From Clostridia bacterium (GTDB lineage: Bacteria; Bacillota; Clostridia; Oscillospirales; CAG-382), in NCBI GenBank assembly GCA_017561145.1, contig JAFZDO010000043.1, forward strand, positions 24,614 to 88,613: 64,000 bases of DNA. The letters run 5' to 3'. Below the pieces are notes generated by a model. It saw nothing but the letters and a program-made list of their open reading frames with translations. It was not told the origin of the DNA and ran no database searches. Of the stretch, positions 34,669 to 64,000 are shown piece after piece. A program made the translations under genes and the position numbers. Position 1 is the stretch's first letter. The number at the start of each line of letters is the position of its first letter.

Positions 34669-35214
34669 ATGGCTTTAAAAACCTTTATTCTTGAAAACAG
34701 CAACACCAAAAAGAAGCGCCAGACCGACGTTCAGAACGCGGTGCGCGAATATCTTAAAAACCCTAAGGCAAAGGTGGTTTACGATGAAAAGGGCAGACCT
34801 TCGGTTGAAGGTGCCGAAAACGTGCATATTTCCATCACCTGTGCTAATAACGTAATGCTTTTGGTTATCTACGAAAAGGCGATCGGTATCGACGGCGAAT
34901 ATCTTCCCAATATTATCGCCGAAGGAAACAAGATCGACCACATGACGCTTGCGGAACGCTTCTTCTCGTATGACGAGGTAGAATATCTCCGCGACAGCGC
35001 GCGTGAAGCAGAGCGTGAAAACTTTGTTAAGATCTGGGTTCGTAAGGAAGCTTATATCAAGGCGGCAGGCAAGACGCTTTCCGATTTCCCCAACTTCTCG
35101 GTCGTTGACGGTAACCGCTTCGCGAAAAAGGTTCACGGTGTGAGCATCAAGGCGTTTGCGATCAAGTTCGAGGACTGCGAAAATTACGTTTTTGCAATCG
35201 CGGGAATAGACTGA
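34669..35214 (+). CDS. 4'-phosphopantetheinyl transferase (Sfp-like)
   Basis: 181 residues. The Sfp/AcpT-type core is visible: VHISITCANNVMLLVIYEKA leading to GIDGEYLPN (metal-binding D-x-E) and then ENFVKIWVRKEAYIKAAGKT (the W-x-x-KEA-x-x-K motif). The enzyme moves phosphopantetheine from CoA to a Ser of carrier proteins. At 181 residues it is shorter than Sfp. Its ATG follows the gyrA stop directly, with GGGGAGG inside the end of gyrA as ribosome site, so it is translated from the gyrBA message. No carrier-protein gene is nearby, so the substrate is probably the fatty-acid ACP or an unlinked carrier. Confidence 0.82.
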   Translation: MALKTFILENSNTKKKRQTDVQNAVREYLKNPKAKVVYDEKGRPSVEGAENVHISITCANNVMLLVIYEKAIGIDGEYLPNIIAEGNKIDHMTLAERFFSYDEVEYLRDSAREAERENFVKIWVRKEAYIKAAGKTLSDFPNFSVVDGNRFAKKVHGVSIKAFAIKFEDCENYVFAIAGID

Positions 35215-35458
35215 TCGCTTCGCTCTCCCCAAAAACGGCAAGCGTTTTCGGGGACCCCATTCTAACCCCAAAAACGGCAAGCGTTTTCGGGGACCCCATT
35301 CTAACCCCAAAAACGGCAAGCGTTTTCGGGGACCCCATTTCCGCGCGGCGGGGTTTGTGAGTGCCGTACATTCGCATCGTGTTTGTGCGCGCTTCGCTTG
35401 TCCAAACACGCGGCACTCTAATGTATATTTTTCAAGGCGCATGTCCTTGAAAAATATA
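35215..35458 (+). repeat. Triple 39-bp hairpin module followed by multi-hairpin element E1 (copy a)
   Basis: Three tandem 39-bp units start at 35227, 35266 and 35305, each an imperfect hairpin (CCCCAAAAACG ... CGTTTTCGGGG) followed by ACCCCAT. Then come CCGCGCGGCGGGG and a long double stem: GAGTGCCG (35359-35366) with CGGCACTC (35411-35418), and CGTGTTTG (35378-35385) with CAAACACG (35403-35410). Last is the hairpin TATTTTTCAAGG/CCTTGAAAAATA ending near 35457. No open frame of its own. Related copies are at 35642-35806, 50517-50656, 62545-62735 and 63461-63720. Confidence 0.9.
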
Positions 35459-35489
35459 GAAATCAATTATAAAAATACTTCGTATTTTG

Positions 35490-35518
35490 GAAGACTGTCG
35501 AAAGGCGGTCTTCTTTTT
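35490..35518 (+). terminator. Terminator of the gyrB-gyrA-phosphopantetheinyl transferase run
   Basis: GAAGACTGTC/GGCGGTCTTC hairpin followed by TTTTTT. Confidence 0.75.
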
Positions 35519-35543
35519 TGCGTTTGCCTTAATTGTTACCTAT

Positions 35544-35560
35544 GGGCGAGAAAGTGAATC
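35544..35560 (-). repeat. Relic of the GGCGATTCAC... short palindromic repeat
   Basis: GGGCGAGAAAGTGAATC is the reverse complement of the variant seen inside the repeat at 63736-63762 (GATTCACTTTCTCGCCC). Confidence 0.5.
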
Positions 35561-35578
35561 ACCTGTTTTGGTGACAAA

Positions 35579-35612
35579 AAAAGAAGACCGTAATTAAATA
35601 CGGTCTTCAAAA
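35579..35612 (-). terminator. Terminator of the nagA-ROK operon
   Basis: GAAGACCGT/ACGGTCTTC around AATTAAAT; on the minus strand a T run follows. The operon would be transcribed through repeat E1b before reaching it. Confidence 0.75.
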
Positions 35613-35806
35613 CACACAGTGTTTTTATAATCAAATAAACATATTTTTCAAGGACATGCGCCTTGAAAAATATACCTCAGAGCATCGCAACCTTGGACAA
35701 GCGAAGCGCGCACAAGGTTGGCGCGAGCGAACGATGCTCACAAAACCCCGCCGCGCGGGCATGGGGTCCCCGAAAACGCTTGTCGTTTTTGGGGAGAGCG
35801 AAGCGT
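35613..35806 (-). repeat. Inverted copy of the multi-hairpin element (E1b) with one hairpin module
   Basis: Reverse orientation of the 35227-35488 repeat: AAAACACACAGTGTTTT near 35613-35629, TATTTTTCAAGG stem at 35642-35673, double stem at 35680-35739 (GAGCATCG/CGATGCTC and CAACCTTG/CAAGGTTG), GC-rich CCCGCCGCGCGGG, and a module at 35761-35794. The stems differ from copy a, but every change is matched in the partner arm. Confidence 0.88.
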
Positions 35807-37183
35807 TTACTTAGTCTTGGGAAGCGATGCAGCTGCAACGGACTGACCTACGCGGCGAGCCTTTTCATCGGGAATGTGGAGCTGGATCTTCTTTGCGAGC
35901 TCGGGGAATTCCTTATCAAGAACTTCCTGAGCGCGTTCAAGAAGGATAACGCCGCCGTCGCCGGAGGTTACACGGCCCATGATGAGAACGTGCTTCATAT
36001 CATAGAATTCAGCATAGAATGCGATAGCGTAGCCGAAGTATGCACCGATGGTGTCATAGATAGCAGCAGCGCGTTCGTCGCCTTCCTTCATAAGGTTCTG
36101 AACGACCTTGAGCTTTTCAGCGGGAGAGAGCGATTCATCGAGCTCGATACCTGCAAAGGGAGCAAGCTTGATAACGCCGTCCTGCGAGAAGTACTTAACG
36201 CCGCAGCCGTAGTCGCCCGACCATTCGTCAACCATTGCGTTCTTGCAGAAGTCAACGGGAGCGAATGCGAGCTCGTTGAGCCAGCCGGTGATGTTGCCCT
36301 GAGGATCAACGTAGCCAACTGCTTCGGAGGTACCCATTGCAACGCCGAGAACCGAATCGTCCTCCAAGCTCATTGCGCCTGCAAGTGCGGTAACGTCACC
36401 GTCGTTTGCAACCTCAACGGGGATATCCTCGCCGATTTCCTTACAAACGTCGATATACATATTCTTAACCTTCTTTTCAAAGTCTTCATCGTTGACCTTG
36501 AGGAAGAGGGAAGCAACCATGATACGGTTGTCAACGTAAACGCCTGCGCTCGAGATACCGATAGCGTCAACGCGGGGCATCTTGGATGCAGCGGTCTTCA
36601 TTGCATCGAGGATGCCTTGATAGTGATAGTCGGGATCGGAGTTGATCTTGGGGAACCAAACAACCTCTTCGGAATAAACGGTTTCGCCGTCGATAACTGC
36701 GGAAACCTTTCTGTCGGATCCGCCTGCGTCAAAGCCGATACGGCAACCGTCGAGGTGACGGCCAACGGGAGCTGCGCCCGAAACGTCTTCGGGAGCTTCC
36801 TCGATAGGACAAATTACAACTTCAAAGGGGCGTTCGTAAACGCGTTCCATAAAGTGAACGTCGAAATCACGAGAGCCGCCATCGGAGTATGCTTCCTTGA
36901 TCTTGTTACCGATAACCTCGCTACCTGCGATAATTACCTTAAAGCCGCCTGCAACCCAAAGGAGAGCCTTGACCATTCTTTCAACGAAATCAAAGTTTTC
37001 TTCGTCGTGGCCGGTGCCGTCAACGAAAACGCGGGTCTTGTAGGTGGTGATATAGCCCTTGTTTCTTTCAACTGCGATAACAAGGTCCTGTCCGTTTTCC
37101 TTGGTAGCTTCGCGCATTTCGCGGCAAACTACCGAAAGAGGAGCAAATTGGGGGTCGAGTTTAGCATTAACCTTAAGCTTCAT
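35807..37183 (-). CDS. ROK-family sugar kinase-like protein next to nagA
   Basis: 458 residues. An N-terminal extension of about 165 residues (FVDGTGHDEENFDFVERMVK) precedes an ASKHA/ROK fold: phosphate-1 loop GCRIGFDAGGSDRKVSAVID, ISSAGVYVDNRI, VANDGDVTALAGAMSLEDDS and VLGVAMGTSEAVGYVDPQGN. The Cys-rich zinc motif of classical ROK repressors is not evident. It starts inside the end of nagA (11-base overlap, with GGAGG well placed), so the two work together, probably in phosphorylating or sensing N-acetylglucosamine or another amino sugar. Kinase activity is inferred; the sugar specificity is not visible. Confidence 0.78.
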   Translation of the reverse strand: MKLKVNAKLDPQFAPLSVVCREMREATKENGQDLVIAVERNKGYITTYKTRVFVDGTGHDEENFDFVERMVKALLWVAGGFKVIIAGSEVIGNKIKEAYSDGGSRDFDVHFMERVYERPFEVVICPIEEAPEDVSGAAPVGRHLDGCRIGFDAGGSDRKVSAVIDGETVYSEEVVWFPKINSDPDYHYQGILDAMKTAASKMPRVDAIGISSAGVYVDNRIMVASLFLKVNDEDFEKKVKNMYIDVCKEIGEDIPVEVANDGDVTALAGAMSLEDDSVLGVAMGTSEAVGYVDPQGNITGWLNELAFAPVDFCKNAMVDEWSGDYGCGVKYFSQDGVIKLAPFAGIELDESLSPAEKLKVVQNLMKEGDERAAAIYDTIGAYFGYAIAFYAEFYDMKHVLIMGRVTSGDGGVILLERAQEVLDKEFPELAKKIQLHIPDEKARRVGQSVAAASLPKTK

Positions 37184-50516: not shown

Positions 50517-50656
50517 CCCCAAAAATGCAAGCATTTTTGGGGACCCCTCGAAAAATATACCTTGGAGCATCGCGAGTGTCGAGCAAATGGGGTCCCCACA
50601 AAACAGGTTTTGTGGGGCAATAAGCGAGGCGCGAGGCGCGAGCGCACGATGCTCAC
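50517..50656 (-). repeat. Hairpin module plus degraded E1 copy carrying a second module in its loop
   Basis: Module CCCCAAAAATGC/GCATTTTTGGGG (perfect stem) at 50517-50547. It runs into half of the TTTTTCAAGG hairpin, then GAGCATCG ... CGATGCTC (outer stem of E1). Inside that stem, at 50587-50617, is an inverted module with a different stem (CCCCACAAAAC/GTTTTGTGGGG). Confidence 0.82.
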
Positions 50657-62536: not shown

Positions 62537-62735
62537 CGCTACGCTCTCCCCAAAAAATCTAAAGATTTTTTAGGGACCCCATGCCCGCGCGGCGGGGTTT
62601 TGTGAGTGCCGTGCGCTCGCGCCGTGTTTGTGCGCGCCTTCGGCTTGTCCAAACACGCGGCACTCTAAGGTATATTTTTCAAGGCGCATGTCCTTGAAAA
62701 ATATGTTTATTCAATTATAAAAACACTGCGTGTTT
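62537..62735 (+). repeat. Hairpin module plus E1 copy d inside the ABC-DUF1854 gap
   Basis: Module CCCCAAAAAATCT/AGATTTTTTAGGG at 62548-62580, GC-rich CCCGCGCGGCGGGG, the double stem GAGTGCCG/CGGCACTC and CGTGTTTG/CAAACACG, the TATTTTTCAAGG/CCTTGAAAAATA hairpin, and AAAACACTGCGTGTTTT (62718-62734). Confidence 0.88.
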
Positions 62736-62884
62736 TGAATTGACGTATCAACCGCACACCGTAGGGGCGATTCACGAATCGCCCGCCGGTAACAAATAAG
62801 ACTAACGTATCAACCACGCGGAGAGAGGGAAACGACAACACACATCCTTCACCGCGGGGGTGTGTAAAAGGAAAGTGAAAAAAT
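62736..62884. repeat. Short palindromic repeat and spacer before the DUF1854 gene
   Basis: GTAGGGGCGATTCACGAATC plus GCCCGC at 62761-62786. The remaining bases up to 62884 hold no gene; a GGAA/GTG-rich leader precedes the ATG. Confidence 0.75.
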
Positions 62885-63460: not shown

Positions 63461-63735
63461 CCCCAAAAATGCAAGCATTTTCGGGGACCCCGTAGTCGCT
63501 AACGCTCTCGACATCGCTTCGCTCTCCCCAAAAATGCAAGCAGTTTTAGGGACCCCATACCCGCGCGGCGGGGGTTTTGTGAGTGCCGTACATTCGCATC
63601 GTGTTTGTGCGCGCTTCGCTTGTCCAAACACGCGGCACTCTAAGGTATATTTTTCAAGGCGCATGTCCTTGAAAAATATGTTTGTTTGATTATAAAAGCA
63701 CTGCGTGTTTTGAATTGACGTTTTTATTACACACC
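63461..63735 (+). repeat. Two hairpin modules plus E1 copy e
   Basis: Modules at 63461-63491 (CCCCAAAAATGC/GCATTTTCGGGG) and 63536-63556 onward (CCCCAAAAATGC with AGTTTTAGGG), then GCGCGGCGGGGG, the double stem identical in form to copy a, the TATTTTTCAAGG hairpin near 63648-63678, and a GCACTGCGTGTTTT hairpin. Confidence 0.88.
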
Positions 63736-64000
63736 GTAGGGGCGATTCACTTTCTCGCCCGCACGAAACAAATACGGCAAACGCAACCGTAGGATATAAA
63801 CGGAACGCTTGAGAATAGGCTTCCCCTTGATATGGGGTCCCCGAAAACGCTTGCCGTTTTTGGGGCATAAGGGAAGCTGTCAGTGCGGTAGAATAGCACT
63901 GACTGATGAGGGGTTCGTTAACTTATTTAAAGATAAATATAACGATGCTTCGCATCTACCCCTCATCCGTCAAAATCAAAGATTTTGCCACCTTCCCCCA
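63736..64000 (+). repeat. Short palindromic repeat and E2 copy b interrupted by a hairpin module (truncated by window end)
   Basis: A degenerate short repeat at 63736-63762, about 55 bases matching those at 48481-48536, then E2 from 63817. Its first hairpin (CTTCCCCTT ... AAGGGAAG) contains an inverted module at 63832-63865. GTCAGTGC/GCACTGAC replaces the GTCATCGC/GCGATGAC stem of copy a. The element runs to the end of the window. Confidence 0.88.

Follow-up and report, generated by a model that had tools for sequence, protein, structure and literature searches.

What keeps the two arms of a hairpin complementary while their letters change from one copy to the next? A 64,000-nucleotide stretch of a Clostridia MAG, here called the window, raises this question, as an earlier note made from its letters alone had described in it a repeat, E1, with paired stem changes around a fixed loop, and had attributed these either to selection on the hairpin, as RNA or as extruded single-stranded DNA, or to a copying process that repairs both arms. 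E1 is a non-coding, chromosomal multi-hairpin repeat of about 150–245 bp. We favor, with moderate confidence, the reading that it is a mobile palindromic DNA repeat, probably copied and remodelled by replication template switching, which would make its arms match. The unit is a chain of hairpins in the order H0-H1-H2-H3, and its features in the window are the following:

35215–35227 (+): copy a H0, TCGCTTCGCTCTC, adjoining the TGA stop (35212–35214) of the upstream gene
35227–35343 (+): copy a H1 region, a tandem array of three hairpin-forming 39-nt units, CCCCAAAAACGGCAAGCGTTTTCGGGGACCCCATTCTAA, of which the third is 90% alike
35341–35358 (+): copy a small G+C hairpin and T-run (CCGCGCGGCGGGGTTTGT), preceding the outer stem
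35359–35418 (+): copy a H2, with outer stem, mini-hairpin bulge, inner stem and loop TGCGCGCTTCGCTTGTC; with H3, 110.2 bits in cmsearch
35424–35458 (+): copy a H3, TATATTTTTCAAGG-CGCATGT-CCTTGAAAAATATA
35640–35739 (−): copy b H2 and H3, in the opposite orientation to copy a; 111.3 bits
35742–35805 (−): copy b H0, H1 and small G+C hairpin, directly 3' of the stop of a gene (35807–37183, −) that we take, from its protein, to encode a ROK-type kinase
50532–50654 (−): copy c, decayed, with the copy-b outer stem; E = 1.8e-5
62537–62705 (+): copy d, H0 to H3, adjoining a stop codon upstream; 118.2 bits
63515–63680 (+): copy e, H0 to H3; 111.4 bits

H0 (CGCTTCGCTCTC) and H1, a terminator-like hairpin often followed by T, both belong to the unit and had been overlooked in the earlier note; with them, copies a and b extend over about 35215–35805. 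Of eight H0 pattern matches in the window, five are followed by the H1 hairpin, and these five all lie in copies a, b, d, or e. H2 consists of an outer stem, a TCGC mini-hairpin, an inner stem, and a TGCGC..TTGTC loop with an apical stem. The mini-hairpin, likewise overlooked, is the 11-nt 5' bulge of H2 and itself covaries (AT-TCGC-AT, GC-TCGC-GC, GT-TCGC-AC). In most copies the H3 loop is C[G/A]CATGT, usually with a T-rich tail beyond. H2 and H3 loops (TGCGC..TTGTC and GCGCATGTC) have a common motif, as if one factor bound both, and the minimal H2 loops are TGCATAAATGTC (loci L131 and L056).

H2 of copy a reads GAGTGCCG-TACATTCGCAT-CGTGTTTG-TGCGCGCTTCGCTTGTC-CAAACACG-CGGCACTC (35359–35418, +) and that of copy b GAGCATCG-TTCGCTCGCGC-CAACCTTG-(copy-a loop)-CAAGGTTG-CGATGCTC (35739–35680, −). 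The architecture common to both is as had been claimed, with three paired changes in the outer stem and four in the inner stem, seven in all, and no broken pair. The 17-nt apical loop is indeed unchanged, with three exact occurrences in the window (copies a, b, and e) against 0.32 matches in shuffles allowing up to 3 mismatches; copy d carries a 19-nt variant. Copies d (62604–62705) and e (63581–63680) keep the copy-a stems, as the earlier note had also stated, and the flanking hairpin TATTTTTCAAGG is present in copies a, b, d, and e (shuffles 0.00); at this AT-rich position other E1 copies have alternative stems. Copy c bears out the description in its outer stem, which is that of copy b, but its interior belongs to another subtype with an inserted CCCC..GGGG hairpin, and its H3 is truncated.

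A covariance model (R1) built from alignment A1 of 27 E1 copies recovered four full copies and the decayed copy c in the window, as well as two weaker matches (E 0.02 and 0.1) on the opposite strand that overlap H3 of copies d and e. At E up to 0.001, R1 had 27 matches in the window's genome (G000; 1.55 Mb, 45 contigs, 68% complete) and 234 in total in 13 of the 24 genomes of the genus, with 1–39 per carrying genome, indicating one family and not chance look-alikes. A family-wide scan gave matches in 18 of 63 genomes; outside the genus, E1 was found in four of seven genomes of g2 (25, 18, 8, and 1 matches) and in one of four of g9. The copies read in G036 (g2), G021, and G001 keep the TCGC bulge, AAGG linker, and third hairpin around a different interior. 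They form a second subtype (L048 and L062 in G036, L077 and L090 in G021, L078 in G001) with the interior TCGCGCC..GACACTC or TAGGCACTC, and with the mini-hairpin, linker, and third hairpin of the main subtype. A scan of named genomes with an E1 19-mer returned 34 stretches, other phyla among them; the Clostridia stretches come from the herbivore-gut MAGs RGIG7278, RGIG7271, RGIG6318, and RGIG4136, and the element was read directly in the last two. Viral contigs had no match to two exact E1 patterns, phage and plasmid records had none to copy d, and a literature search of open-licence papers found no published description of the family.

Stem covariation is the usual proof of real RNA structure. 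Searching R1 over 100 of 180 sequence sources, some of the others overlapping these, gave 131 matches, from which we obtained 126 distinct aligned rows (127 copies are distinct when flanks are considered). Double changes occur in 29 of 32 stem pairs, 95.8% of cells pair, and the covariation score is 0.589 versus 0.182 in shuffles, also exceeding slid controls, so that the paired stem changes first seen in two copies extend to the family. We then considered which pairs occur, leaving two special ones out. One terminates H3 and is T.G in 75 rows. The other, at columns 200/265 of H3, lies two pairs below the one that closes the loop; of its 126 rows, 79 have A facing C and 40 have A-T, a conserved mismatch in a stem that is perfect elsewhere. 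In the remaining 3588 cells, 97.5% are Watson-Crick, 23 (0.6%) are G.T, 32 (0.9%) are A.C, and 35 are other, the G.T and A.C counts being statistically alike (two-sided p = 0.28); with the special pairs included, G.T rises to 98 and A.C to 112. RNase P RNA of the same genus, taken from 23 of 24 genomes (G022, a fragment only, was left out), has instead 232 G.U (11.6%) and 5 A.C (0.2%) in 2001 cells, and 58 and 4, respectively, among varying pairs (Fisher p = 9e-10 versus E1). Given that the seed copies came from a search that permitted G.T and barred A.C, and that covariance models favor G.U over A.C, any such bias should oppose the observed rarity of G.T. H1 was kept out of this comparison because the search for that hairpin demanded Watson-Crick pairs. 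Near-strict Watson-Crick pairing with G.T about as rare as A.C therefore suggests that E1 stems are matched by a DNA-level process and not by RNA function. The leftover mismatches look like raw, unselected point mutation.

Selection as RNA, which would make E1 a structured RNA gene or a regulatory RNA, thus appears very improbable among the options of the earlier note; copying with repair of both arms agrees with the spectrum. Covariation far above shuffles and slid controls would agree with an RNA, as would the core loop columns (such as TCGC, TGCGC, TTGTC, and AGG), which are at least 92% conserved, and a −10-like motif in the tail: 86 of 127 copies have ATTGTA, ATTATA, or a near form (TAYAAT on the other strand) no more than 35 nt from H3, compared with 107 of 2524 random stretches that include coding DNA. 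However, G.U is no commoner than A.C, unlike in RNase P RNA; no Rfam family reaches its gathering score in the window save a tRNA at 1323–1396; and close species differ by the swapping, nesting, and truncation of whole hairpins. A DUF3800-associated RNA was rejected (RF02969 at 23.7 bits versus a cut-off of 44.2; PF12686 in 0 of 24 genus genomes), and plant miRNA matches obtained by cmscan at a relaxed threshold, over the long inverted repeat formed by copies a and b, fall far below gathering. We also dropped the minus strand as the functional strand, which A.C mismatches had suggested, since outside columns 200/265 A.C is about as frequent as G.T.

The genomic placement of E1 raises another explanation. 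A same-strand frame of at least 120 codons ends within 260 nt upstream of 99 of 127 copies, and the stop codon lies 40–59 nt before the outer stem in 37 of 127, so that H0 often begins almost at the stop; an opposite-strand frame follows on the other side of 56 of 127 copies, without a distance peak. Judging from this position, transcription may end at those E1 copies that lie behind stop codons. Ordinary concerted evolution would then hold that intrinsic-terminator hairpins are selected and homogenised by gene conversion, the long duplications described below being unrelated tandem duplications. Consistent with it are the copies behind stops, a T-rich run after H1 in 57 of the 90 copies in which the hairpin was found, several flank matches that are arrays or multi-copy gene ends, and the dominance of a few stem types in some genomes: in G000, 17 of 20 copies have one of three outer stems, and in G011 one inner stem occurs in 12 of 20. 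Outer, inner, and H3 stems are combined in 17 ways among those 20 G000 copies, and G004 is more diverse, with 13 outer-stem types in 20 copies. We regard concerted evolution as improbable: terminator selection works at the RNA level and would tolerate G.U; outer arms separated by about 45–60 nt change jointly around a rare interior that stays largely the same (L012 versus L165:1494); and the eight clear duplications bracket the E1 ends with no second E1 within 450 nt.

Comparison of close relatives revealed how E1 turns over at fixed sites. The kinase protein beside copies a and b is 99% identical between G000 and G005, and the gap in G005 that matches that of the two copies contained no E1 landmarks on reading. 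At seven other G000/G005 sites, with both flanks 87–98% identical, the hairpins differ. L120 and L131 have identical H3 and tail and differ in everything before (H1 and H2), L135 and L020 agree in H1 and H2 and differ in H3, and L130 and L123 agree in H2 save one base and an inserted hairpin. In 40 orthologous-site copy pairs with both flanks matched, which overlap and hence lack independence, both sides had changed in 333 stem pairs and neither in 766, compared with 28 that changed in one base only and 4 that changed on both sides without Watson-Crick pairing. L012 (G000) and L165:1494 (G004) have a nearly identical rare apical loop and tail with outer stems that differ on both arms. Hairpins were also found inserted inside other hairpins. 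Much of this reassortment could have come from ordinary gene conversion, acting on contiguous hairpins or on a whole H2. Inverted H3 loops were considered as template-switch footprints and discarded, the ATGCG loop in three G004 copies being too short to count.

The mobility proposed in the earlier note is supported by flank duplications and an insertion. Left and right flanks match, by a score and position test, in 20 of 122 testable copies (five of 127 were left out because a flank was too short), compared with 44 of 2130 pairs of different loci in one genome (p = 3e-11), 47 of 12678 cross-genome pairs, and 5 of 981 in a smaller sampled control. Eight of the 20 are clear target duplications of 31–117 bp, defined by no other E1 within 450 nt and a match reaching at most 5 nt into H3 (L089, L143, L139:2052, L165:650, L094, L165:1494, L012, and L178:6553); L012 and L165:1494 may be one old insertion. 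The ends are alike in most insertions, with H0 at the left and H3 plus the T-rich tail at the right. The 12 other matches comprise arrays (three in L158, two in L146, and L072), gene ends that are multi-copy in G012 (L149 and L150), L164, whose match extends 18 nt into H3 and where an older E1 copy may have been present before, and matches in, or running into, repeat modules (L178:7164, L139:5087, and L135); L149, L150, L072, L146, and L164 were ruled out as clear duplications on these grounds. Before dnaE in G012, E1 separates the intact gene from a 117-bp duplicate of intergenic DNA plus the first codons, whereas the 230 nt before dnaE in 11 other genus genomes contain no intact E1, with apparent remnants in G004 and G020. 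At L089, the duplicated segment extends into a new 15-bp palindrome at the junction, with the arm GAAAGAACAGCGC in both segment copies and its complement at the junction only, as expected if the copying strand folded back. This is the one clear footprint of the kind; a second candidate at L139 (10 nt) was too weak. DNA transposons and MITEs leave short target duplications of fixed length. E1 resembles them in inserting with a target duplication, in eight clear cases with an empty site in relatives at dnaE only, but its duplications are long and variable. It agrees with the broader class of mobile palindromic repeats, that is, dispersed palindromes gained or lost between close relatives.

Template switching would bring the matched arms, hairpin swaps, duplications, and fold-back footprint under one process. 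Within a hairpin, the nascent strand would fold back or switch to the opposite arm and copy it, and a change in one arm would thereby pass to the other as its exact complement. Between copies, the strand would jump to another E1, exchanging hairpins or carrying E1 to a new place, and would leave a duplicated target segment upon rejoining the original template 30–120 bases back. Core loops would stay fixed if loop-changed copies stop propagating. Perfect and compensated stems have been described as products of template switching (PMC8794818). A stronger form of this reading seems less likely than not: E1 would spread without a gene or dedicated enzyme of its own, its hairpins seeding template switching by the replication machinery. 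A single process would then write both arms, exchange hairpins between copies, and paste E1 into new places with 30–120 bp target duplications. Several findings weigh against template switching: insertion ends are more orderly than random switching would give, the conserved core loops and the H2/H3 motif (GCGC..TGTC) look protein-recognised, the conserved H3 A.C mismatch survives arm copying, 12 of the 20 flank matches are not clear and the footprint is one case, and G004 has its diversity of stem types.

The likeness of the ends and the conservation of the loops would also be compatible with a dedicated hairpin enzyme. The integron integrase and the REP transposase recognise hairpins of single-stranded or cruciform DNA, and the main rival explanation makes E1 the non-autonomous transposon of a putative enzyme of this kind, which would read the loops of single-stranded or cruciform hairpins and make widely staggered cuts that yield long duplications, palindromy alone mattering for the stems. 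The likeness of ends in most of the eight clear insertions, conservation concentrated in unpaired columns (82% versus 71% in paired ones, over all columns) and in core loops, the GCGC..TGTC loop common to H2 and H3, the H3 A.C mismatch, and the confinement of E1 to part of one genus plus relatives all point in this direction. We still consider it somewhat unlikely, since an enzyme alone leaves G.T as rare as A.C, and paired changes at fixed sites, unexplained; a strand-specific binder should accept G.T on its own strand. The candidate families also failed to track E1. The earlier note had suggested looking for a Y1 (REP-type) transposase, IS200/IS605, or a reverse transcriptase, but the Y1 family PF01797 was found in one of 13 carriers versus four of 11 non-carriers, and the reverse transcriptase family PF00078 in four of 13 versus two of 11, both being absent from G000 and G011. 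Gaps in MAGs weaken single gene absences, yet G011, with 26 E1 matches, is 97% complete. DUF3800 (PF12686) was over cut-off in 0 of 24 genus genomes, with one weak match in G021. Thus, of the three protein families covered, none tracks E1, and a retroelement and a RAYT-associated REP element were both rejected. The REP tag is missing as well: none of the 127 copies carries GTAG or CGTC 8 nt or less from its outer 5' arm, or GTAG/CTAC at that distance from its H3 end. A loss of SbcCD was considered as a condition that might permit E1, but it does not discriminate, the curated SbcD cut-off being passed by 0 of 24 genus genomes, carriers and non-carriers alike; partial matches lie in frames mostly of 376–408 aa (G023 at most 2 bits from the cut-off), which possibly encode a divergent SbcD-like nuclease.

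Several known systems resemble E1 in part. BOX and bcr1 are modular bacterial repeats that are intergenic, multi-copy, and structured, and E1, compared with their usual description, is alike in all these respects. Integron attC sites lie in one orientation after stop codons, fold as single strands, and have variable stems; relative to this general picture, E1 also follows stop codons, is foldable, and varies in its stems, but it sits at ordinary housekeeping loci. REP and other GTAG- or CGTC-tagged repeats are palindromes lying 3' of genes, with subfamilies that carry alternative but complementary residues in their stems; GT pairing is frequent in them, and mobility has been proposed (PMC3733652). 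E1 shares with them its many palindromes 3' of coding regions, stem subfamilies, and mobility, and differs in having several hairpins, almost no G.T, an outer stem that lacks these tags, and long variable target duplications; the window's genome also had no Y1 transposase match. Mitochondrial repetitive or double hairpin-forming elements are non-coding, invade intergenic regions, differ greatly between close relatives, and have no known adaptive function (PMC2800124). E1 is similarly non-coding, intergenic, and divergent between close relatives; however, those elements are organellar, and constant loops with covarying stems and 31–117 bp duplications are absent from the available part of their description (PMC2800124). 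Template-switch mutations produce perfect stems and paired multi-base changes in one event in RNA genes, whereas in E1 the mechanism would drive a whole family and its spread (PMC8794818). E1 combines very strong covariation with a pair spectrum lacking G.U preference, which points to a DNA-level cause, and the ratio of G.U to A.C offers a simple, usable filter for covarying repeats. Given that species with 87–98% identical flanks differ in same-site hairpins, E1 also lets the origin, perfection, and spread of palindromes be studied, with up to 39 copies per genome as replicates.

Other arrangements were observed alongside these. L158 (G011:C1) is a tandem array of five E1 units, and L146 (G012:C25) has two, each with a copy of a gene end. 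In G012, E1 lies at similar ends of genes at L140, L149, L150, L151, L153, and L146, with flanking sequence common between loci; the neighboring genes are presumably dockerin-type, as named by reading. Hairpins of the CCCC..GGGGACCCC type, as in the copy a H1 units, are also inserted inside E1 hairpins of L002, L007, L020, and L123. Between copies a and b, two facing terminator-like hairpins (35489–35514, +, and 35583–35608, −) have an inverted CGGTCTTCTTTTTT in common. A separate, partly palindromic (GATTCACGAATCGCCC) repeat, GTAGGGGCGATTCAC, occurs in the window at about 62760–62790 and 63735–63765 and at L020 and L135, and recurs across this genome and in G005.
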